The position numbers and the translations under genes are program-made. Shown here one piece after another: positions 16,859-49,131 of a stretch of 64,000 nucleotides of DNA (the stretch's first letter is position 1; each line of letters starts with the position of its first letter). The notes below the pieces were generated by a model. It ran no database searches, was not told the origin of the DNA, and saw only the letters and a list, made by a program, of their open reading frames with translations. Source of the stretch: Proteinivorax tanatarense (GTDB taxonomy: Bacteria > Bacillota > Proteinivoracia > Proteinivoracales > Proteinivoracaceae); NCBI RefSeq assembly GCF_040267685.1, contig NZ_CP158367.1:1922001-1986000 (forward strand). The letters are read 5' to 3'.

Positions 16859-19800
16859 CTAACTGCTGATATTTGCTTTCTCTGCTTTTTTCTTTGCTTT
16901 TTTCTTGGCAAAAAAGTTTGTGAAATCATCTAGAATACTATACATCACCGGAACTAATACCAAAGTTAGTACCGTAGATACTGCAAGTCCTCCAATAACT
17001 ACAGTTGCTAAAGGAGCTCTAACCTCTGCTCCTTCACCAACGGCTATTGCCATTGGAAGCATTCCTAAAATTGTAGTTAAACTTGTCATTAATATAGGAC
17101 GCAATCTTGATTTTCCAGCTTCTAATAGCGCTTCTCTTCGCTGCATCTTTTTCCCATGATACAACTGGTTAGCATAATCAACCATAACGATTCCGTTATT
17201 AACCACTATACCTGCCAGCATTATTATACCAATAAAAGCGATGATACTTAAACTTCGATTAGTTATAAGCAGCGCTCCTATAATTCCTACAAAGGTTTGA
17301 GGTAAAGTAAACATTATTATAAACGGATAGATTAAAGACTCAAACTGTGCTGCCATAGTCATAAATACCAAAACTATCCCCAAAATCAGCGCAAGTTTTA
17401 GACCGTCAAATGCATCAACCATTTCTTCGTATGCTCCACCATACTCTACAAAATAACCATCTGGTATATCCAGTTTATCTACCTCTTTTTGAATATCCTC
17501 CATTGCTTCTGATAACTCACGGTCAAGAAGCTGAGCCGTAACGGCTCCCGATCGCATTTCGTTCTCCCTTTGTATATGTCTAGGGGCAGTTGTAACTTCA
17601 AAAGTTGCCAATTCCCTCAAGGGAACTGAATAACCTAAAGGACTTGGTATATATAAGTTTTTAAGATTGGGAATATCTATATCATGATGATACTCCATCA
17701 CCATATCCACTTGATATTCTTGACCGTCTTCTCTAAAAATTGTTATAGTCTCATCGGTCATGGCCAGGTTAATAAACTCTCCCACTTGATAACTTGTAAG
17801 TCCATGACTTTGTGCTCGCTTATGATCAATATCTATGCTAACTTGTGGAAGCTCTTCATCAAAGGATGTTTCTATTTCTCTAATACCTTCTACTTCCTCT
17901 ATAGAATTAGCTATTAAACTTGTTTGTTCTTCTAGTACCTCTAATTCATCCCCTCTCACGATAATTTCAACATCATCGCCTACTCCACCAGATATATCCA
18001 TTACCGATACACGCATATCTACTCCAGCGGTTTCAGGGATATCTCGCCTAATTTTTTCCGCCACTTCAAAAACAGAGTTATCCCTTTCGTCCAAGTCTAC
18101 CAAGCTAACATCGATTCTTCCTCCGCTACTTCCCAATAGCTCCGTAGCACTACCAGCTCCTACCTGGGTAAAAATAAACTCAATATCTTCAAATTCTTCT
18201 AAATAACTTTCTACCCGCAAAATTTCTGCTTCCATCTCTTCAAAGGTTGTACCCGCAGGGAAATCAAAAGTTATATTTAACACTCCCGCATCCATTGCTG
18301 GCAAAAACTCAAACCCAACAAAAGAATATAAAAATACACTAAATACCATAAATAACACAAACAATGATACTACTATTTTCCTATTATCTAACGAAAGTTG
18401 TAATAGATTCTTATATTTATTACGTAACTTATCCATACCCTGATCTACTTTTTGAGAAAACTTATTCTTTTTACTAAAGTCAGTTCCTTCCGGCATAACT
18501 TTTACAGTAAGAACAGGCATAACGGATATGGCAACAATTAGCGACACAAATAGCGAAAAAGTTACAGTCCATGCTAATGGCGTAAATATAATACCTGCTA
18601 CTCCTTCTACAAATATAACAGGTAAAAATGCAACTACACTGGTTATTGTTGAAGCCGTTATCGCTCCCGCTACTTCTTTACTACCTCTTTCTGCAGCTAA
18701 AGCCGGCTCCATGCCTTGCTCTCGTTTGCTAAAAATATTTTCCAGTATTACCACTGCATTATCGACCATCATTCCAACACCTAATGCTAATCCGCCTAAT
18801 GTTATAAAGTTTAGTGAATCTCCTCGCATATAAATAAGAGCAAAGGTTCCTACTACAGATATTGGAATAGCCACACCAACTATAGTGGTAGCTCTAAAGT
18901 TACCTAAGAAAATCCATAAAACTATCATCGCCAACACTGCACCTACTAAGGCAACTTCAATCAAGCTATTAATGGCTTCTTGAATAAACTCACTTTGATC
19001 AATAACCACTTCAAACTCTACATTGCCGGGAAGCTCACTTTGTAACTTATCCAACTCTTTATGGATTGAGTTAGCTACTTCTACAGTATTGGCATCACTT
19101 TGTTTTCTAATAGATAAAGAAATAGTTTCTTCACCATTAATAGTGGTTACAGGCTCTTGAATTACATTTTCATCTACTACATAGCCAATATCTCCCAAAG
19201 ATATAGGGCTACCTGACTCATCAGAACCTACAAAAACTGACTCTATTTCATTAACATCTTCAAACTGCCCTGACACCTGCAAGGCATACTCTCTTTCTCC
19301 ATCTTCCACTGTACCACCGGAGACATCTATATTAGAAGCCTGAACTGCTAAAGCTACATCTTCAACAGACAGCCCATGCTCCTGTAGTTTATAGGGGTCT
19401 ATGTTAACACTTATCTCTCTTTGTTCACCACCAGCAACATCAACAACTGCCACTCCATCTATACGTTCTAGCTGAGTTTTTACCATACCGTCTGCCGTCT
19501 CCGTCAACTGTTGGTAATCTAAATCACCAACCATTCCCACCTGCACGATGGGCATCATATCAGGGTCTAGCTGCATAACCATCGGAGAACCAATATCTCC
19601 AGGAAGGTGTCCCCTTACAATATCTACTATTTCACGGGCTTCTAGTGAAGCATATTTCATATCTGTTCCCCAGTTAAAACTCAGTAGCATTATACTTCTA
19701 CCCTGTTGTGAGTAAGAAGTAATTTCATCTAAACCATCTAAAGTTGACAATGATTCTTCCATTGGTCGGGTTAACATCGTTTCAACTTCTTCAGGGCCGG

Positions 19801-19960
19801 CTCCTTCGTAATCCATCATAATCAGCAATACAGGAAGTTCCATCTCTGGATATAGATCCACAGGTATCATAGTAAAAGAAATCATACCTAGTAAAATTAT
19901 TATAGATACAACCATTAGCATTGCTACAGGTCTTTTTATTCCTATGGAAGATAAGTTCAT
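16859..19960 (-). CDS. RND-family efflux pump (AcrB/HAE1-like inner membrane transporter)
   Basis: At 1033 residues this has the full length of an RND transporter: an N-terminal membrane helix (RPVAMLMVVSIIILLGMI), a large extracytoplasmic loop, helices 2-6 near 335-490, a second loop and helices 7-12 at the end. The proton-relay helix reads GVGMMVDNAVVILENI, with Asp-Asn where E. coli AcrB has Asp-Asp, as in many relatives. It should export drugs, bile-like compounds or lipids. In Gram-positive cells no outer membrane channel is needed. The gene lies 2 bases after the adaptor gene in one operon and ends at a strong terminator. The last residues are lysine rich (KKKAKKKAEK). Confidence 0.95.
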   Translation of the reverse strand: MNLSSIGIKRPVAMLMVVSIIILLGMISFTMIPVDLYPEMELPVLLIMMDYEGAGPEEVETMLTRPMEESLSTLDGLDEITSYSQQGRSIMLLSFNWGTDMKYASLEAREIVDIVRGHLPGDIGSPMVMQLDPDMMPIVQVGMVGDLDYQQLTETADGMVKTQLERIDGVAVVDVAGGEQREISVNIDPYKLQEHGLSVEDVALAVQASNIDVSGGTVEDGEREYALQVSGQFEDVNEIESVFVGSDESGSPISLGDIGYVVDENVIQEPVTTINGEETISLSIRKQSDANTVEVANSIHKELDKLQSELPGNVEFEVVIDQSEFIQEAINSLIEVALVGAVLAMIVLWIFLGNFRATTIVGVAIPISVVGTFALIYMRGDSLNFITLGGLALGVGMMVDNAVVILENIFSKREQGMEPALAAERGSKEVAGAITASTITSVVAFLPVIFVEGVAGIIFTPLAWTVTFSLFVSLIVAISVMPVLTVKVMPEGTDFSKKNKFSQKVDQGMDKLRNKYKNLLQLSLDNRKIVVSLFVLFMVFSVFLYSFVGFEFLPAMDAGVLNITFDFPAGTTFEEMEAEILRVESYLEEFEDIEFIFTQVGAGSATELLGSSGGRIDVSLVDLDERDNSVFEVAEKIRRDIPETAGVDMRVSVMDISGGVGDDVEIIVRGDELEVLEEQTSLIANSIEEVEGIREIETSFDEELPQVSIDIDHKRAQSHGLTSYQVGEFINLAMTDETITIFREDGQEYQVDMVMEYHHDIDIPNLKNLYIPSPLGYSVPLRELATFEVTTAPRHIQRENEMRSGAVTAQLLDRELSEAMEDIQKEVDKLDIPDGYFVEYGGAYEEMVDAFDGLKLALILGIVLVFMTMAAQFESLIYPFIIMFTLPQTFVGIIGALLITNRSLSIIAFIGIIMLAGIVVNNGIVMVDYANQLYHGKKMQRREALLEAGKSRLRPILMTSLTTILGMLPMAIAVGEGAEVRAPLATVVIGGLAVSTVLTLVLVPVMYSILDDFTNFFAKKKAKKKAEKANISS

Positions 19961-19962
19961 TT

Positions 19963-21231
19963 TTATTTATCCTCCCTAACTACTTCGACTTCTACACCAT
20001 CATCAACCTGAGATAGTCCTGCTACAACTACATTATCTCCTTCTTCTAATCCTTCTACATGCACAAGACCATTTTGTGATATCCCCGATGTAACTGGCTT
20101 AAGTTTAGCAATATTTTCCTCATCAATTACATAAACATATTCTTCTTCATCTTCTTCTATAATTGCATGCCTAGGCACAGCCAACACATCTAATTTGCTG
20201 ACAATAGGCAGCTCTAACTGCGCATTCATACCTACCCTCAAATTATCTACTTCATCATCTAATACTAAGTTTACAGGGTAAAACCTCCCCCCTTCTTCCG
20301 GTACAATTCCAACCTCTGTAATTGTAGCAGTGACTTTTTCATTTGAAATGGCAGGTATAACAACATCGGCACTTTCTCCTTCAGATAAGTTGACAATATA
20401 TTGTTCTGAAACAGAGGTGCTTATATGAACTCTCCCTTCACTTACAATTACAATAGCAGGATTAACTGGATTGGCAGTATCACCTTCGCTAATACGTATC
20501 TTAAGAACCTCTCCGCTAGCAGGTGATTGTACATAAGTTTTTTCATACTCATCTTCTGCTCGCTCTAAAAGTCTTTCTGCCCACTTTACTTGCTCTTCAT
20601 AAAATGCCTCTTGAACATTACCGCTATCATCTTCTTTTACAGAATCTACTACTTCTTCTGCTCTTTCAGTACGACGCTGGGCTATTTCATATCTATCCTC
20701 ATATCTCTCAAGCTGTAACTTGGTTATTTCACCTTCTTCATAATCCTTCCTAGCTTCTTCTAATTCTTCTTTTTTCTCTTGTTCATATTCTTGAGCTTCT
20801 TCCAGGTTATCTTGAGCAGTTTTAAGTGACCAGCTCTCTTCCTGTTGGGCTTCATGTAAGTTATTACGGGCATCATTCAAGTCCCTTTGTGCCTCATTAA
20901 CTCTATCTTTTTGAGTAGAGTTATCCAATTGGAATAAAAGATCTCCCTGACTAACAATATCCCCTTCAGAAACTAAAACTTTTTCCACTGTACCAATAGT
21001 GTCAGGCGTAACCCTCCAGTCGTTCTCTGGCACAAAAAATCCAATAGTATTTAAAACCTCCTGTATATCAGTAGGCTTTAATTCTTTAGTTTCTACTAAT
21101 GGTAGCCTTGCCTCTTCTTGCTTAATAACCGTTTCTTCCTCAGCGTTTACCAGTGATATAACTACTCCCAACGACACCAAAGCTATACCTGCTACTGCTA
21201 AAAAAAATTTCTTTGATTTTGGTATTTTCAT
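19963..21231 (-). CDS. RND efflux periplasmic-adaptor-type protein (HlyD/MFP family)
   Basis: The 422-residue product has an N-terminal membrane anchor (FFLAVAGIALVSLGVVISLV), a lipoyl/barrel-sandwich half near residue 70, a long alpha-helical coiled coil rich in Glu, Ala and Gln (about 95-215), the second lipoyl half (SPASGEVLKI), and beta-barrel and membrane-proximal domains. It links to the RND pump gene that starts 2 bases after its stop. The ATG at 21231 has GGGGG 8 bases upstream; the frame runs open another 23 codons but without a ribosome site. The coiled coil is long for a Gram-positive adaptor. Confidence 0.92.
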   Translation of the reverse strand: MKIPKSKKFFLAVAGIALVSLGVVISLVNAEEETVIKQEEARLPLVETKELKPTDIQEVLNTIGFFVPENDWRVTPDTIGTVEKVLVSEGDIVSQGDLLFQLDNSTQKDRVNEAQRDLNDARNNLHEAQQEESWSLKTAQDNLEEAQEYEQEKKEELEEARKDYEEGEITKLQLERYEDRYEIAQRRTERAEEVVDSVKEDDSGNVQEAFYEEQVKWAERLLERAEDEYEKTYVQSPASGEVLKIRISEGDTANPVNPAIVIVSEGRVHISTSVSEQYIVNLSEGESADVVIPAISNEKVTATITEVGIVPEEGGRFYPVNLVLDDEVDNLRVGMNAQLELPIVSKLDVLAVPRHAIIEEDEEEYVYVIDEENIAKLKPVTSGISQNGLVHVEGLEEGDNVVVAGLSQVDDGVEVEVVREDK

Positions 21232-21283
21232 GTTAAAAACCCCCATAATTATGCTAATCTCTCCTCTAAATTTTGCTGTGATA

Positions 21284-21326
21284 AAAAATATGAAAAACAC
21301 TATAAAGTGTTTTTCATATTTTATTT
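21284..21326 (-). terminator. Terminator of the MacB-type ABC operon
   Basis: AAAATATGAAAAACACT pairs with AGTGTTTTTCATATTTT around a short loop, followed by T-rich sequence on the minus strand. It separates the ABC genes from the RND operon. Confidence 0.75.
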
Positions 21327-25196: not shown

Positions 25197-25764
25197 ACCT
25201 AAATTCCTTATAGGTAAGATATAAACATACAAATATAACCCTGAAACATAAACATATGAAGTTTCAATTCCTCATAGGTAAGATAATAACTTCTAATGCA
25301 TCTAAAGAAGTCTTTACAGCTCTTTGGTTTCAATCCCTTATAGGTAAGATATAAACTTGGGGAAAAGATATTAAAGCATTAGATATAGCTATGTTTCAAT
25401 TCCTTATAGGTAAGATATAAACGGATGAACTTGAAATCGTCAAAAATTCGTCAAAAATTGTTTCAATTCCTTATAGGTAAGATATAAACTGGGGAGATAT
25501 TAACTTGCAGAAATTTTGGGGGGTATTGTTTCAATTCCTTATAGGTAAGATATAAACGATTTCCATCTGAATTTCTTATTGGTTGTGCGGTTAAGAGTTT
25601 CAATTCCTTATAGGTAAGATATAAACAAAGCGGTCATGCTATAGAAGGTAGTTTAGCAGAAACATGTTTCAATTCCTTATAGGTAAGATATAAACTAGAA
25701 ATGCTTTTGATACCTATAAAAAGATAGAAAAATAGTTTCAATTCCTTATAGGTAAGATATAAAC
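25197..25764 (-). CRISPR. CRISPR array, nine 30-bp repeats, eight spacers, no cas genes in the window
   Basis: Repeats start at 25197, 25261, 25327, 25393, 25460, 25528, 25597, 25666 and 25735; the last six are identical, beginning GTTTCAATTCC and ending GATATAAAC. Spacers are 34, 36, 36, 37, 38, 39, 39 and 39 bases. Read on the minus strand the repeat ends ATTGAAAC, the 8-base handle usual for type I-B and III crRNAs. The three left-hand repeats are degraded (first four bases of repeat 1 changed; repeat 2 ends ATAATAAC; repeat 3 has one substitution), as the leader-distal end usually is. So transcription runs right to left. No Cas protein is encoded anywhere in the window. Confidence 0.97.
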
Positions 25765-40700: not shown

Positions 40701-41228
40701 ATGAATGAAAAATTTTGGGATGAGTGCGTTGATTTTCACGGTCATATCTGCCCAGGTTTAACTATAGGCTATAAAGCAGCCCTGTTAGCCCGCAAACTAT
40801 TTGGTGGTAAAAGTGCGGAAGATGAAGAAATCGTTTGTATAACTGAAAATGATGCCTGTGGTGTGGATGGTATTCAGGTAGTTTTAGGCTGCACCTTTGG
40901 CAAAGGAAACCTTATATACAAAGACCTGGGGAAAGTTGCCTATAGCTTTTATAATAGGGATTCTGACAAATCTTTTAGATTGTTATTTCGAAGAGATCTT
41001 AACGCTCCCCAAGCCCGAGAAGAAAAACAAAAATTTTTGCTGCACAGCAACGAAGAAGATCTATTCGATATAACAGAAGTTAAGGAGCCCCTTCCTCAAA
41101 AGGCAAAACTTTTTTCCACTGTAATTTGCGAAAACTGTGGAGAAGGTGCCGCTGAACATCGCATACGTTTAGTTGAAGGAAGTAAAACCTGCCTTCATTG
41201 TTATGATGAATATAGTCGCATAAATTAA
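40701..41228 (+). CDS. FmdE family protein with C-terminal zinc ribbon
   Basis: The 175-residue protein starts with the FmdE signature FHGHICPGLTIGYKAALLA, whose His and Cys bind metal, followed by ENDACGVDGIQ with a conserved Cys. The C-terminus has CENC near residue 138 and CLHC near 163, a zinc ribbon. FmdE was named from a methanogen formylmethanofuran dehydrogenase operon, but in non-methanogens such proteins are thought to serve molybdenum or tungsten enzymes; nothing nearby confirms this. Monocistronic; a strong convergent terminator follows. Confidence 0.88.
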   Translation: MNEKFWDECVDFHGHICPGLTIGYKAALLARKLFGGKSAEDEEIVCITENDACGVDGIQVVLGCTFGKGNLIYKDLGKVAYSFYNRDSDKSFRLLFRRDLNAPQAREEKQKFLLHSNEEDLFDITEVKEPLPQKAKLFSTVICENCGEGAAEHRIRLVEGSKTCLHCYDEYSRIN

Positions 41229-41266
41229 AAGGACAGCCCCAAATAAAGAAGTGGGGCTGTCCTTTT
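41227..41266. terminator. Bidirectional terminator, 14-bp perfect stem
   Basis: AAAAGGACAGCCCC pairs with GGGGCTGTCCTTTT around 12 bases, overlapping the ends of both convergent genes. Confidence 0.9.
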
Positions 41267-42116
41267 AATCTATGGCTACAATTTCTTCTGCAAAATCTTT
41301 AATTTCTTTAGAAATTAAAGATAGCTGATTCAAACTGGCGGCCACGTTTTCGCTAGCTTGGGCCTGTTTTTCTGTTACATCAGTAGTGCCGTCAACTCCT
41401 TGGTTTACTTTATCAATGCAATCTTTAATATTTCTAAGAATTTGTTCAATTTCCTCCACAGAACTATTGCTAGTAGTTGCCAACTTTTGAATTTCTCCCG
41501 CTACAACGTTGAAACCTTTTCCTACTTCACCTGCCCTAGCCGCTTCTATTGATGAATTTATTCCTAGTATTTTAGTCTGGTGACTTATAGATTTTATTAG
41601 AGAAAGTACAGATTCAGTCCTATCAACTGAAACCACCGCTTGTTTAGATTCTGTTTGCAAAGTATGATTCATGTCCCTTAATTTTTGCACTCCCGTTTCT
41701 ACCTCTTTTACTGCATCTCCCACAACTTGAAGATTCTTATTTAAAGTTTCTAAATCATTTTTTAGCTTATCAGCCATGCTTTTAAGCTCTGCTATTAATG
41801 TATTTCTACCTTGCACTATTTCCATTATTAAATTTGCACCTTTGCCATCAATTAGGGTGGTATTTTCAGATATGTTACCAATTAAACTTTTCTTAACAGC
41901 CGGCACTCCTGTGGCTTCGATAACACAGTCTATTTCTTCACTCAATAGAGGCAAAAAATCTTGTTTTGTTAGCACTCCGTTTTCTTTTGCAATCATTAAC
42001 CCCGGAGCTTTTGGGTCTATATCAGTTACCCATGCTAACTCTACATTGCTAAGACCTGAAAGAACTCTTATTATTTCAGTTCCGCCTTCTCCACCACCAA
42101 CTATCCCAATTTTCAT
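41265..42116 (-). CDS. Soluble Rossmann-fold/methyl-accepting chemotaxis fusion
   Basis: The 283-residue protein starts as a nucleotide-binding Rossmann domain: MKIGIVGGGEGG at 1-12, an acidic residue after strand 2 (WVTDID), and DCVIEATGVPAVKK, as in aspartate or homoserine dehydrogenase-like folds. From about residue 120 it becomes a coiled coil, and residues 186-208 (NSSIEAARAGEVGKGFNVVA) are the hairpin tip of the MCP signalling domain that contacts CheA and CheW. There is no membrane segment or HAMP domain. It may report NAD(P)(H) or a related ligand to chemotaxis. No che gene is nearby. AGGAGGG precedes the ATG at 42116; the open frame upstream is not used. Confidence 0.85.
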   Translation of the reverse strand: MKIGIVGGGEGGTEIIRVLSGLSNVELAWVTDIDPKAPGLMIAKENGVLTKQDFLPLLSEEIDCVIEATGVPAVKKSLIGNISENTTLIDGKGANLIMEIVQGRNTLIAELKSMADKLKNDLETLNKNLQVVGDAVKEVETGVQKLRDMNHTLQTESKQAVVSVDRTESVLSLIKSISHQTKILGINSSIEAARAGEVGKGFNVVAGEIQKLATTSNSSVEEIEQILRNIKDCIDKVNQGVDGTTDVTEKQAQASENVAASLNQLSLISKEIKDFAEEIVAID

Positions 42117-42321
42117 ATTAAATGCCCTCCTAATGTATATTAAATTAGGTAATAATGCTTTATTTAAAGTTTGTTTATAATAATGCATTTCAATCACCTA
42201 ATTACACACAAATTATTCCAATTTTATATTATACCTGTTATACTTTATTTCGTCTACAGGTAAAAGGAATTATCTATCTTTTGTCGAATATCTTTTTACA
42301 CTAATTTATGAGGTGATGAAT

Positions 42322-43794
42322 ATGGATAAGTGTAAGTTAGATTTTTTAAGTGAAGATATAGTATTGGAGCACTCCATTTTTGAACTTCAAAAAGCCATGG
42401 AAAAAGGGATTACTTCATCAAAAGAAATCGTAATGGCTTACCTTAAAAGAATTGCTATTTACAATAAGTCCGGACCTAAAATAAATGCTATTTGCGAAAT
42501 TAATCCCGATGCTCTTTTTATAGCTACCACTTTAGATAAAGAAAGAAAACAAAAAGGTGCTAGAAGTTGCTTACATGGGATACCTATTGTTGTAAAAGAT
42601 AACATTGATACCGGTGACAAAATGCATACTACAGCTGGTACACTTGCTTTAAAAAATAGTTATGCAAAGAAAGATGCTTTTTTAGTTAAGCAGCTTAAAA
42701 CAGCTGGAGCGATAATTTTAGGTAAGGCTAGTTTAACAGAATTTGCAAATTTTATGTCCACTAAAATGCCCAATGGATATAGTACTGTGGGTGGTCAGGT
42801 TCTTAATCCATACGGACCAAATAAGTTAGATGTTGGTGGTTCTAGTTCAGGTTCAGCAGCTGCTGTAGCTGCTAATTTTGCTTGTGCTTCTATAGGGACA
42901 GAGACATCAGGCTCGATTTTAAGTCCCTCTAGTCAAAACTCTTTAGTTGGAATCAAACCCACTGTGGGAATGGTCAGCAGAAGTGGGATTATACCTATAT
43001 CTTACACCCAGGACACTGCCGGGCCGATGGCAAAAACTGTGGAAGATGCTGTAGCTCTGTTAAGTGTAATGATGGGCATTGATGAATGCGATGCTGTTAC
43101 TAAAAACATTCCACCAGGGGTTGGAATTGATTTTTCCGCATCTTTTAAAAAAGACGGTTTAAAAAATGCAAAGATAGGAGTTTGTAAAGAGTTTTATGAA
43201 TCTATCAATAAAGAAAAAAAATTAATTATGGAAAATGCCGTTAATGACTTAGTTAAATGTGGAGCTAAAATCGTTGATATTCCAAAAATTCATACACATG
43301 AAATAACACTAAGCTATGAGGTATTGTTCCATGAATTTAAACATGGCATTAACAATTACTTAAATGATTTAAGCAGTGCCCCTGTTAAAACTTTAAAGGA
43401 TGTTATTAGGTTTAATCTAGAGAACAAAAAGGTGGCGTTAAAGTACGGTCAAGATCTCTTAGAAGCCAGTGAGAATACCAACGGAATGTTAACTGATAGT
43501 AAGTACCTCACAGAATTGATAAGAGATCAGCATTACTCCCAAAGTGCTGGCATTGATGCCGTAATGGATAAATATGACTTAGACGCACTATTATCTCCCG
43601 CCAATTATGGAGCTGCCTTACCTGCAAAGGCTGGCTACCCTTCAATTACCGTGCCAGGGGGTTACACAAAGAGTAACGAACCAGTGGGTATCACCTTTAC
43701 AGGCAAGGCCTTTACTGAGCATAGATTGGTGGAACTAGCATATAGCTATGAGCAAGCTACTAAGCATCGAATTCCTCCAAAACTAAGCTACTAA
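42322..43794 (+). CDS. Amidase signature family enzyme
   Basis: The 490-residue protein has the complete Ser-cisSer-Lys triad of the amidase signature: Lys in IVVKDNIDT near residue 94, the SSSGS of DVGGSSSGSAAAVA near 175, and the nucleophile in GTETSGSILSPSS near 196. GatA of the tRNA amidotransferase has the same fold, but here gatC and gatB are not adjacent and the sequence around the nucleophile resembles the stand-alone amidases. Substrate unknown. ATG at 42322 follows AGGTG by 6 bases; upstream GTG and ATG codons overlap the ribosome site. Confidence 0.9.
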   Translation: MDKCKLDFLSEDIVLEHSIFELQKAMEKGITSSKEIVMAYLKRIAIYNKSGPKINAICEINPDALFIATTLDKERKQKGARSCLHGIPIVVKDNIDTGDKMHTTAGTLALKNSYAKKDAFLVKQLKTAGAIILGKASLTEFANFMSTKMPNGYSTVGGQVLNPYGPNKLDVGGSSSGSAAAVAANFACASIGTETSGSILSPSSQNSLVGIKPTVGMVSRSGIIPISYTQDTAGPMAKTVEDAVALLSVMMGIDECDAVTKNIPPGVGIDFSASFKKDGLKNAKIGVCKEFYESINKEKKLIMENAVNDLVKCGAKIVDIPKIHTHEITLSYEVLFHEFKHGINNYLNDLSSAPVKTLKDVIRFNLENKKVALKYGQDLLEASENTNGMLTDSKYLTELIRDQHYSQSAGIDAVMDKYDLDALLSPANYGAALPAKAGYPSITVPGGYTKSNEPVGITFTGKAFTEHRLVELAYSYEQATKHRIPPKLSY

Positions 43795-46706: not shown

Positions 46707-46782
46707 TGGTGGAGATGAGGGGGATCGAACCCCTGACCTCATGTCTGCCAGACATGCGCTCTCCCGGCTGAGCTACATCCCC
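46707..46782 (-). tRNA. tRNA-Ala (anticodon GGC)
   Basis: On the minus strand 76 bases fold as a full cloverleaf: acceptor GGGGATG/CATCTCC, D arm GCTCAGCCGGGAGAGC, anticodon stem CATGT/ACATG with loop CTGGCAG, T arm AGGGGTTCGATCCCCCT, and an encoded CCA. Anticodon GGC reads GCC/GCU alanine codons. Confidence 0.97.
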
Positions 46783-46915
46783 AATTTAGTTACATGTTAT
46801 AGTATACCACTTTTTTTTTTGATGTCAAGACACTTTTGCTTTTTTTAATTTGACAAATTTTGAAGCTTATTTTTTTTGGGTTTTCTTCAAATAATAAGCA
46901 CAGGAGGTTTTTATT

Positions 46916-48037
46916 ATGTCCAAAAATAAAAACAAAGTTGCAATAATGGGAGCTGGAATTGCAGGCCTTTCTTGTGCTTATGAGCTTGAAAAGTTTGGAA
47001 TAACACCGGATGTTTTTGAAGTAATGGACCAAATTAGTGGTCAAGGAATCAACCATACAGTAGGCTGGATGAATGTAATGTATCGACCAATTAAAGACCC
47101 ACTAATTTATCTTAAAAAAAGATATGGTTTTAATTTAAGGCCCATAGAAAAAATTCGCAGAGTTAATTTTTACTCTCCAAATAATTCAGCAACACTAGAA
47201 GGAGATTTAGGATATATACATTTATCTGGCCCAGATAAGCGTTCTCTTTACTATCAAATACTACCCAAAATTAAAACCCCTATTCAATATAATCAAGTTG
47301 TTAATTTTAGAGATTTATCGGAGGAATATGACCACGTTGTCATAGCAAATGGCAACTCGGATATAACTGAGTTATGTGGGTTGTGGAAAACTGATGTGGC
47401 TGGATATGTACGGGGTGCTACAGTTTATGGTAGTTTTGACCCTCAAACGATTGTTATGTGGTTTAACACCGAATATGCTCAGCATGCCTATGCTTACTTT
47501 GTTCCATGGAACGACAGAAAAGGCTCGTTAATACTCAATATGCTTGAAGTAACTCTTCAAGGGGCTGACATATGCTGGAATAGGTTTTTAAATGATATTA
47601 ACTGGAATGTAGAAATAGCAGAAGTATGGGAAAAAGTCCATCACCTAGGTCATGTTCATAAACATTTTTACGACAACCTAATCTTTACTGGAGCTGCTGG
47701 TGGCTTTTTAGATCCATTGTTTGCCTTTGGAAATATTGCAACTATTGAAAGTGGTGGAGCTGCTGCTAAGCACATTGCTAAAAGGGCAGACTTCAGCAAA
47801 GAAGTTAGTTTATGGCTTAACAGAAATAAAAAAACATTAAGATTAAGAAGATATGTTGATAAATTTACAAATGACGACTTTGACAAAATGCTGGACTATC
47901 TTAAAACTCCTGGGTTTAGAACCGTTGCTGCAAAATCAAATATCAATATTATTAATCTTCTATCTAACGTTGCCAATACTATAGTATCCAAAAAAATCGA
48001 TACTGTATTTTATCCCAAGGAGGGTGTAAAACAGTGA
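46916..48037 (+). CDS. FAD/NAD(P)-dependent oxidoreductase, tandem copy 1
   Basis: The 373-residue flavoprotein begins KVAIMGAGIAGLSCAYELEK, a Rossmann GxGxxG FAD-binding motif with the acidic residue in DVFEV after strand 2. The later GFLDPLFAFGNIATIESGGA near residue 257 corresponds to the second FAD-contact block seen in geranylgeranyl-reductase-like and lycopene-cyclase-like enzymes. The substrate is unknown. No membrane helix. GGAGG precedes the ATG. The next gene is a diverged copy whose GTG start overlaps this stop by 4 bases (GTGA). Confidence 0.8.
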   Translation: MSKNKNKVAIMGAGIAGLSCAYELEKFGITPDVFEVMDQISGQGINHTVGWMNVMYRPIKDPLIYLKKRYGFNLRPIEKIRRVNFYSPNNSATLEGDLGYIHLSGPDKRSLYYQILPKIKTPIQYNQVVNFRDLSEEYDHVVIANGNSDITELCGLWKTDVAGYVRGATVYGSFDPQTIVMWFNTEYAQHAYAYFVPWNDRKGSLILNMLEVTLQGADICWNRFLNDINWNVEIAEVWEKVHHLGHVHKHFYDNLIFTGAAGGFLDPLFAFGNIATIESGGAAAKHIAKRADFSKEVSLWLNRNKKTLRLRRYVDKFTNDDFDKMLDYLKTPGFRTVAAKSNINIINLLSNVANTIVSKKIDTVFYPKEGVKQ

Positions 48038-49131
48038 AAAAAAATCCTAGAGTTGCAATTATGGGTGCAGGAGTAGCAGGACTTGCTTGCGCTTATGAAC
48101 TTGAAAAAATGGGTGTCCAACCAGATATATTTGAGATGGCCAAACAAACAGGTTCTAGGGGATTCAACCATACATTGGGTTGGATAAATTTAATGTACCG
48201 GCCGGTACAAGACCCTGTAATGCACCTTAAAGAAAAGTATGGGCTTAAATTAAGGGCGATGGAAGAGATTAGGCGGGTTAACTTCTATACCGCTAACAAC
48301 TCCGCCACCCTAGAGGGAAAACTAGGATATATTTTTCTATCCGGTCCCGATGAAAGGGGGATAACCTCACAACTTAAATCTCATATAGAAACAGATATTC
48401 AGTATGAATCTATCACAAACTTTAGAGAGCTTTCCCAAAACTATGATCACGTAGTAGTTGCCACTGGAACACCGGAAATTCCAAAACTTTGTGGTATTTG
48501 GAAAACTGATATATCAGGATATGTACGAGGTGCCACAGTTAAGGGCAACTTCGACCCCAAAACCGTCGGCATGTGGATGGAAAAAACGTATTCACAAAGT
48601 GGATATGGATATTTCGTCCCCTGGAATGATAGAAAAGGTTCGTTAATTTTAAACATGCTAGAGGTGGGAGAATATGGGGCAAAGTTGTGCTGGGATAACT
48701 TCATTGATTCATTGGGTTGGGATGTGGAATATGAAGAGTTTTACGAAACACCCCATAACATTGGTCATGTTAGTAAACATCAGGTAGAAAATTTATATTT
48801 TGTTGGTCTAGCGGGAGGATTTTTAGACCCTTTATTCGCATTTGGTTCCATTGAATGTTTAGCTAGCGGCGCTGCTGCTGCTCAAAGCATAGTTAACGGC
48901 AAAGATTTTACAAAACTTACTCATATGTGGCTGAGGCGCAATCAACAACTTTTAATGATGAGAAGATATGTTGATAAATTTAAAGATGAGGACTTTGACC
49001 GTGCCTTTGAAGTTATTAAAACTCCAGGTTTTCGCTCCCTTGTCACACGAACCAATGTCAATATAATTTATCTGTTATCAAAGTTAACTAATACATTTGC
49101 TTCCAAAAAAGTGGATCGAGTTCTATACTAA
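48034..49131 (+). CDS. FAD/NAD(P)-dependent oxidoreductase, tandem copy 2
   Basis: A 365-residue paralogue of the preceding protein, collinear along the full length: VAIMGAGVAGLACAYELEKM at the start, VNFY.A/SNNSATLEG near residue 87, VPWNDRKGSLILNMLEVG in the middle, GGFLDPLFAFGS near 256 and RRYVDKF..EDFD at the end. The start is GTG overlapping the upstream stop, with GGAGGGTG 9 bases before, so the two are translationally coupled and may form a heterodimer. Conservation of all shared blocks in both copies suggests that both are active. Confidence 0.8.
   Translation: MKKNPRVAIMGAGVAGLACAYELEKMGVQPDIFEMAKQTGSRGFNHTLGWINLMYRPVQDPVMHLKEKYGLKLRAMEEIRRVNFYTANNSATLEGKLGYIFLSGPDERGITSQLKSHIETDIQYESITNFRELSQNYDHVVVATGTPEIPKLCGIWKTDISGYVRGATVKGNFDPKTVGMWMEKTYSQSGYGYFVPWNDRKGSLILNMLEVGEYGAKLCWDNFIDSLGWDVEYEEFYETPHNIGHVSKHQVENLYFVGLAGGFLDPLFAFGSIECLASGAAAAQSIVNGKDFTKLTHMWLRRNQQLLMMRRYVDKFKDEDFDRAFEVIKTPGFRSLVTRTNVNIIYLLSKLTNTFASKKVDRVLY

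Follow-up and report, generated by a model that had tools for sequence, protein, structure and literature searches.

A gene on the minus strand of the analysed DNA from Proteinivorax tanatarense (the window, i.e., the whole stretch of 64,000 nucleotides) encodes a protein in which a Rossmann domain directly precedes a short MCP signalling hairpin. The preferred reading, to which we assign a probability of roughly 60%, is that this protein is a cytoplasmic chemoreceptor with a NAD(H)-binding Rossmann input and that taxis would thereby be driven by the internal pyridine-nucleotide state. Domain order, fold, conserved binding residues, a near-canonical tip, solubility and the presence of a che pathway are established as far as sequences and predicted structures can establish them; a shared fold, by itself, proves no function. 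The features of the locus are:

42126-42131, minus strand: Shine-Dalgarno sequence AGGAGG, 9 nt ahead of the ATG, read directly from the sequence
41265-42116, minus strand: gene for the soluble Rossmann-MCP receptor (283 aa and a stop codon), an intact open frame with AGGAGG 9 nt before the ATG
41847-42116, minus strand: Rossmann domain, residues 1-90, with the G7/G9/G12 loop, D32, T69-G70 and D90 (models, alignments)
41268-41846, minus strand: residues 91-283, the two arms of a short MCP hairpin (Pfam, monomer model)
41397-41624, minus strand: hairpin tip region, residues 165-240, with the CheA, CheW and trimer contacts (Tsr alignment)
41224-41269, no strand assigned: strong hairpin, probable two-way terminator (-30.9 and -29.6 kcal/mol)

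The ATG start is favoured over the GTG at 42197 given in the ORF list because of the AGGAGG at 42126-42131. The initial annotation had proposed a soluble chemoreceptor with a dinucleotide-binding-type domain, and both parts of this proposal are supported, the former by a Pfam match of residues 160-279 to MCPsignal (E 4.9e-24) and the latter by a Rossmann model with a pLDDT of 95.8. The annotation proved correct on every point checked.

The Rossmann domain and its predicted cofactor site

The AlphaFold model of residues 1-118 (pLDDT 95.8; alignment of 30 sequences) exhibits five strands alternating with helices and then a helix from residue 91 onward, with strand 87-89 passing directly into helix 91-117. 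A Rossmann domain is thereby confirmed for the N-terminal half, but the domain proper comprises only about residues 1-90 and not, as assumed earlier, residues 1-118, with the signalling helix beginning already at residue 91. The GGGEGG motif and the acidic residue after strand 2, both of which had been pointed out before, correspond to residues 7-12 and D32 and are located in a confidently modelled region; T69-G70 follows strand 4 and D90 follows strand 5. The protein hence displays the beta-alpha fold, the GxGxxG after strand 1 and the acidic residue at the end of strand 2 that characterize NAD-binding Rossmann domains of the Gfo/Idh/MocA type.

In the search by domain and structure that had been suggested for residues 1-118, the fold and the binding residues were placed correctly, and the Pfam scores remained below the cut-off. 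For the Rossmann half of the window protein none of the listed Pfam families matched above cut-off, the best scores being those of DapB_N (E 0.0032) and GFO_IDH_MocA (E 0.031-0.11), and no curated family recognizing this copy of the input domain above cut-off was found. Other members of the domain family may pass the Pfam cut-off, as GFO_IDH_MocA is matched by 57 of 60 with E values of at most 0.1 (the best being 1e-10). A profile built from 60 relatives led to NAD-dependent dehydrogenases in the PDB (best E 6e-8). In Foldseek, the PDB entries that residues 1-118 matched best were acylating acetaldehyde dehydrogenases (4lrt, 7z3s, 1nvm) together with Gfo/Idh/MocA dehydrogenases; by their entry titles, several of these carry bound NAD. 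Comparison with dehydrogenase folds by VIA-align yielded Z values of up to 12.6 (rmsd 4.6 over 112 residues). As profile and AlphaFold model reach the same families of NAD-dependent dehydrogenases, a chance occurrence of the motif was rejected on the grounds of the profile match, the model confidence and the fold matches.

Among 121 distinct domains, G7, G9, G12, D32 and T69 are near-invariant. Position 32 is Asp in all 8 long-MCP and all 11 kinase fusions, in 75 of the 76 short-MCP and in 13 of the 14 sigma54 fusions, and within the short-MCP fusions G9 and G12 are retained in 75 of 76 and T69 in all 76. Position 82 is Lys in 47 of the 76 short-MCP fusions and Ile in the window protein. D32 aligns with Asp35 of the B. 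subtilis inositol dehydrogenase (3mz0), which is the residue altered in 4l9r (A12K/D35S, as given in the entry title), a mutant that presumably concerns the preference for NAD or NADP. Judged by these residues and the models, the domain likely binds NAD(H).

It is conceivable, though rather unlikely, that NAD(H) stays bound to the domain at all times in a structural capacity, or that the domain senses a different adenine nucleotide or an acyl-CoA; the receptor would then report on metabolism and not on the NADH/NAD+ state. Acylating acetaldehyde dehydrogenases, which use CoA as well as NAD, are among the closest folds, and weak CoA_binding matches (best E 3.3e-4) were obtained for 14 of 60 domain members. 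However, the near-invariant D32 is found in inositol dehydrogenase and not in the aligned acetaldehyde dehydrogenases, which argues against this alternative. The NAD(H) state is probably the actual signal, which would then be a redox or energy state.

Gfo/Idh/MocA and acylating acetaldehyde dehydrogenases share the Rossmann fold and the GxGxxG with the receptor, and inositol dehydrogenase also its Asp after strand 2. Yet these enzymes keep a catalytic or substrate domain, which is absent here, and the receptor continues with the long MCP helix right after strand 5 instead. In none of the fusion frames examined does a catalytic domain follow the Rossmann domain. The missing catalytic half of the dehydrogenases implies a sensor and not an enzyme; it would also fit an inert dehydrogenase remnant which serves only as a cap or aids dimerization. 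This seems highly improbable, as the cofactor loop and D32 are near-invariant although identity to the window copy drops to 23-44% outside its family, and as the domain has repeatedly been joined to other outputs (see below), as expected of an input module. A Rossmann domain sensing NAD(H) without catalysis is known from Rex, a NADH-sensing repressor, which is found among the weak sequence-profile matches and the fold matches (3wg9) of the domain. Rex carries a winged-helix DNA-binding domain as its output, in contrast to the CheA/CheW tip of the receptor, whose full-length model shows nothing but the Rossmann domain and a single long helix, with no winged helix.

Distribution of the domain and exchange of its output partners

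The domain profile matched in 161 of 398 sampled Bacillota genomes at E 1e-5 and in 110 of 398 at E 1e-13, a cut-off picked at a score gap so as to leave out ordinary NAD enzymes; these genome tallies were made by hand. MCP fusions were confirmed in 69 of the 398 genomes. According to a scan of named genomes, the domain occurs in at least five phyla other than Bacillota. Among the matches listed, fusions to histidine kinases were present in Nitrospirota, Kiritimatiellota, Elusimicrobiota, Candidatus Eisenbacteria, a Deltaproteobacterium (Myxococcota) and Pelotomaculum, and fusions to sigma54 in Pelotomaculum and Peribacillus. The 121 distinct domains, a fetched subset of the profile matches minus five weak enzyme-like ones and repeated domains, comprise 76 short MCP, 8 long MCP, 14 sigma54, 11 kinase and 12 other proteins, with the fusion classes being assigned by a home-made profile and motif patterns. 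Of the 12 others, eight combine PAS and helix-turn-helix without AAA+, the rest being fragments or an odd case.

On a tree of the domains, at least 12 changes of partner are required, compared to a mean of 43 for shuffled labels. The tree was calculated from a short alignment and many of its forks are unresolved; its well-supported branches alone demand at least four changes for kinases, three for short MCP and three for sigma54. The repeated change of partners, which are MCP tips, PAS-sigma54 activators and histidine kinases, makes the domain an exchangeable input module. Whether it amounts to a so far undescribed, mobile NAD(H)-sensing Rossmann module that serves as a common input to chemotaxis receptors, sigma54 activators and histidine kinases across Bacillota and at least five further phyla is a more tentative idea, for which we see somewhat less than an even chance. 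If this idea holds, motility, transcription and two-component signalling would all rely on a single kind of sensor for a direct readout of the pyridine-nucleotide pool, and the same domain on gene regulators and kinases would offer a general, testable answer to the question of how redox balance is sensed. The domain is small (about 110 residues), soluble and modelled with confidence.

The eight PAS and helix-turn-helix proteins (L044, L157-L160, L162, L163, L170) are about 300 aa long, with the domain followed by PAS and a C-terminal helix-turn-helix and without the sigma54 AAA+; Gly11 is often replaced by Glu in them. Another protein, encoded by frame 313-1242 of L103 (Nitrospira sp. bin75), has a response-regulator receiver domain apparently split by the Rossmann domain, an insertion which could be real or an assembly fault.

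The signalling half and the chemotaxis pathway

In the full-length model, residues 91-281 form a single helix (pLDDT 91.4), and the pTM of 0.52 leaves the overall shape unsure, the hairpin turn not being drawn as a break. The tip region aligned with Tsr (1qu7, E 3.1e-13) and with two other receptor chains, 3ur1_C (E 3.5e-12) and 4jpb_B (E 3.9e-12), which we take to be fragments from CheA/CheW complexes. At the compared Tsr positions, presumably trimer and kinase contacts, N381, E385, G395, F396, V398, V399 and A400 are retained in all 84 Rossmann-MCPs, R388 in 79 and E402 in 80 of the 84. The signalling tip, described before as bona fide, thus aligns with Tsr and keeps most contacts, but in the window protein Tsr N376 is replaced by Lys and Tsr R404 by Gln, because of which its trimer contacts are not fully canonical. 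Lys at N376 is found in 59 of 84 Rossmann-MCPs and in none of 19 other receptors of the window's genome, Gly at A379 in 79 of 84 compared to two of 19; in the aligned sequences, both are family traits of Rossmann-MCPs. From the start of the tip (at about residue 165) to the C-terminus the window protein counts about 118 residues. This span is 112 and 117 residues in two other short receptors of the same genome and 176-192 in the long ones, not counting a single frame truncated at the end of its locus.

As annotated, the protein lacks a membrane segment and a HAMP domain. Its highest 19-residue Kyte-Doolittle mean is 1.09, compared to 1.9-3.3 in longer receptor frames of the genome, and the 25 best-scoring of 59 Pfam families included neither HAMP nor PAS. 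The methylation consensus, which is usual but not universal in MCPs, had no strict or loose match in the window protein; its strict form is present in 24 of 76 relatives, and in the window's own genome the count was 16 of 20 frames, including frames cut by locus ends. The absent consensus speaks against adaptation by methylation but does not call MCP membership into question, and judging from the sequence the window's member probably adapts without the usual methylation sites.

Besides the signalling domain with its conserved tip, the genome provides CheA and CheW, as expected for an MCP. One cluster contains CheA, CheW, CheC and CheD, all named from sequence, with CheA and CheW also identified by a CheW-domain match. 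CheW domains were found at three places, and a family search yielded one CheR, one CheB and two flagellin matches; 20 further places match MCPs. The receptor output very probably goes to CheA. The second genome sampled from this genus lacks the Rossmann receptor, yet has CheW, CheR, CheB and flagellin. All 69 genomes that carry an MCP fusion have a CheW domain, compared to 337 of 398 overall (3e-6 if independent), a co-occurrence that is expected of any MCP.

Two copies of the receptor would pair via the MCP hairpin, the tip of which would join the CheA-CheW array. The Rossmann domain would represent the cofactor-binding half alone, with NAD(H) as its most likely ligand. In classical Rossmann folds the nicotinamide end of the cofactor sits at the edge of strand 5. 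As the signalling helix starts directly after this strand, NAD(H) occupancy or redox state could shift the helix, which may alter CheA activity and thereby the swimming bias. The signal might be the redox or the energy state, and it as well as the direction of the response are inferred.

The energy-taxis receptors known so far sense the redox state by way of a flavin in a PAS domain. Aer and AerC, the latter cytoplasmic, are FAD-PAS receptors which, according to passages of PMC13401364, report the internal redox state to CheA. The Rossmann receptor is proposed to resemble them in reporting redox to CheA via a bound dinucleotide, but their sensor is a PAS fold with FAD, whereas the N-terminal region here is a Rossmann domain like that of NAD dehydrogenases, with neither PAS nor HAMP and hence no FAD-binding PAS domain. 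In the passages of PMC13401364, NADH and Rossmann have no occurrences. If the preferred reading is true, direct reading of NAD(H) in the cytoplasm would tie the swimming of an anaerobe to the central redox currency. Cytoplasmic chemoreceptors as such are already known, and it is the input domain that appears to be new. TlpD, for example, is a cytoplasmic chemoreceptor with a CZB domain; it is likewise a soluble MCP with a receptor tip but has another input domain, the input of the Rossmann receptor being N-terminal. No description of a Rossmann-type or NAD-binding chemoreceptor was found in searches of open-licence papers, although subscription journals could contain one. The expectation of a rarely described kind of sensor fits the papers searched but not the genomes, in which the architecture is common; the input domain is widespread and apparently undescribed.

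Synteny and surroundings of the receptor gene

Conserved synteny with che genes, which had been named as a check, exists in part, with cheB in the window's family and cheR and cheD in another, but relatives of CheA, CheW, CheB, CheC, CheD or CheR adjoin the receptor in only four of 73 focal loci (blastp; some loci cut short). In one genome of the same family (G003) the receptor gene is directly followed by cheB and then a PhoP/PhoR-like pair; in a second (G002) a gene for an FMN-binding lipoprotein lies between receptor gene and cheB. The cheB beside the receptor in these relatives is the only one of their genomes. In a third (G004) the FMN-binding gene comes next after the receptor, close to the end of a contig, and cheB opens another contig. 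In the window's genome the same cheB cluster lies 73 kb away, without the receptor, whose gene is not beside che genes and seems to have moved out of this cluster; the cluster of G001 likewise lacks it. In another family, cheR and cheD lie at most three genes from the receptor in two genomes. In several genomes of the family (G003/G002/G004, L178-L180; G000, L213) the FMN-binding lipoprotein gene adjoins the sole cheB gene, whether a receptor is present or not.

The commonest neighbours of the receptor are housekeeping genes (spmB-like, rluB-like, parA/parB-like), and synteny therefore gives no hint of the ligand, the exception being cheB and the FMN-binding lipoprotein gene of the window's family. 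In one clade (11-12 of 69 loci; names from sequence) the receptor is flanked by a spmB-like and a rluB-like gene. This location, the lysine in the tip and the lack of a methylation site in the window protein would fit a MCP-like protein without flagellar steering, which serves as a structural part of the array or acts on a different output of CheA or CheB. We regard this as quite improbable, as the single CheB, the single CheR, the three CheW-domain places and the flagellins of the genome do not indicate a second pathway. The spmB-like and rluB-like genes flank or neighbour the receptor gene within a sporulation-type cluster in L084, L118, L123, L125, L126, L182, L185, L189, L191, L192 and L195.

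In the window, the receptor gene is flanked by a convergent FmdE-like gene (40701-41228) and a divergent amidase gene (42313-43794). The former encodes an FmdE domain fused to a DksA/TraR-type zinc finger. The hairpin at 41224-41269 is common to the two convergent genes (z -7.1 and -8.5) and is probably a two-way terminator for both, so that the receptor gene appears to be monocistronic here; its loop of 10 nt exceeds the 3-8 nt admitted by the simple terminator scan. No sigma-D type promoter matched upstream of the receptor gene, with five sites in the window compared to 3.9 expected; sigma70-like sites in the stretch scanned numbered eight compared to 4.3 expected, a count that is uninformative. 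A phage or plasmid origin was rejected, as no relative among viral contigs and no match among plasmids was found. Elsewhere, the window contains genes for an AcrB-like RND-type efflux pump and its membrane-fusion partner (16859-21300), a short CRISPR array of eight repeats (25261-25764; Rfam CRISPR-DR2) and two neighbouring FAD/NAD flavoprotein-like genes next to a tRNA-Ala(GGC) gene (46707-49131).
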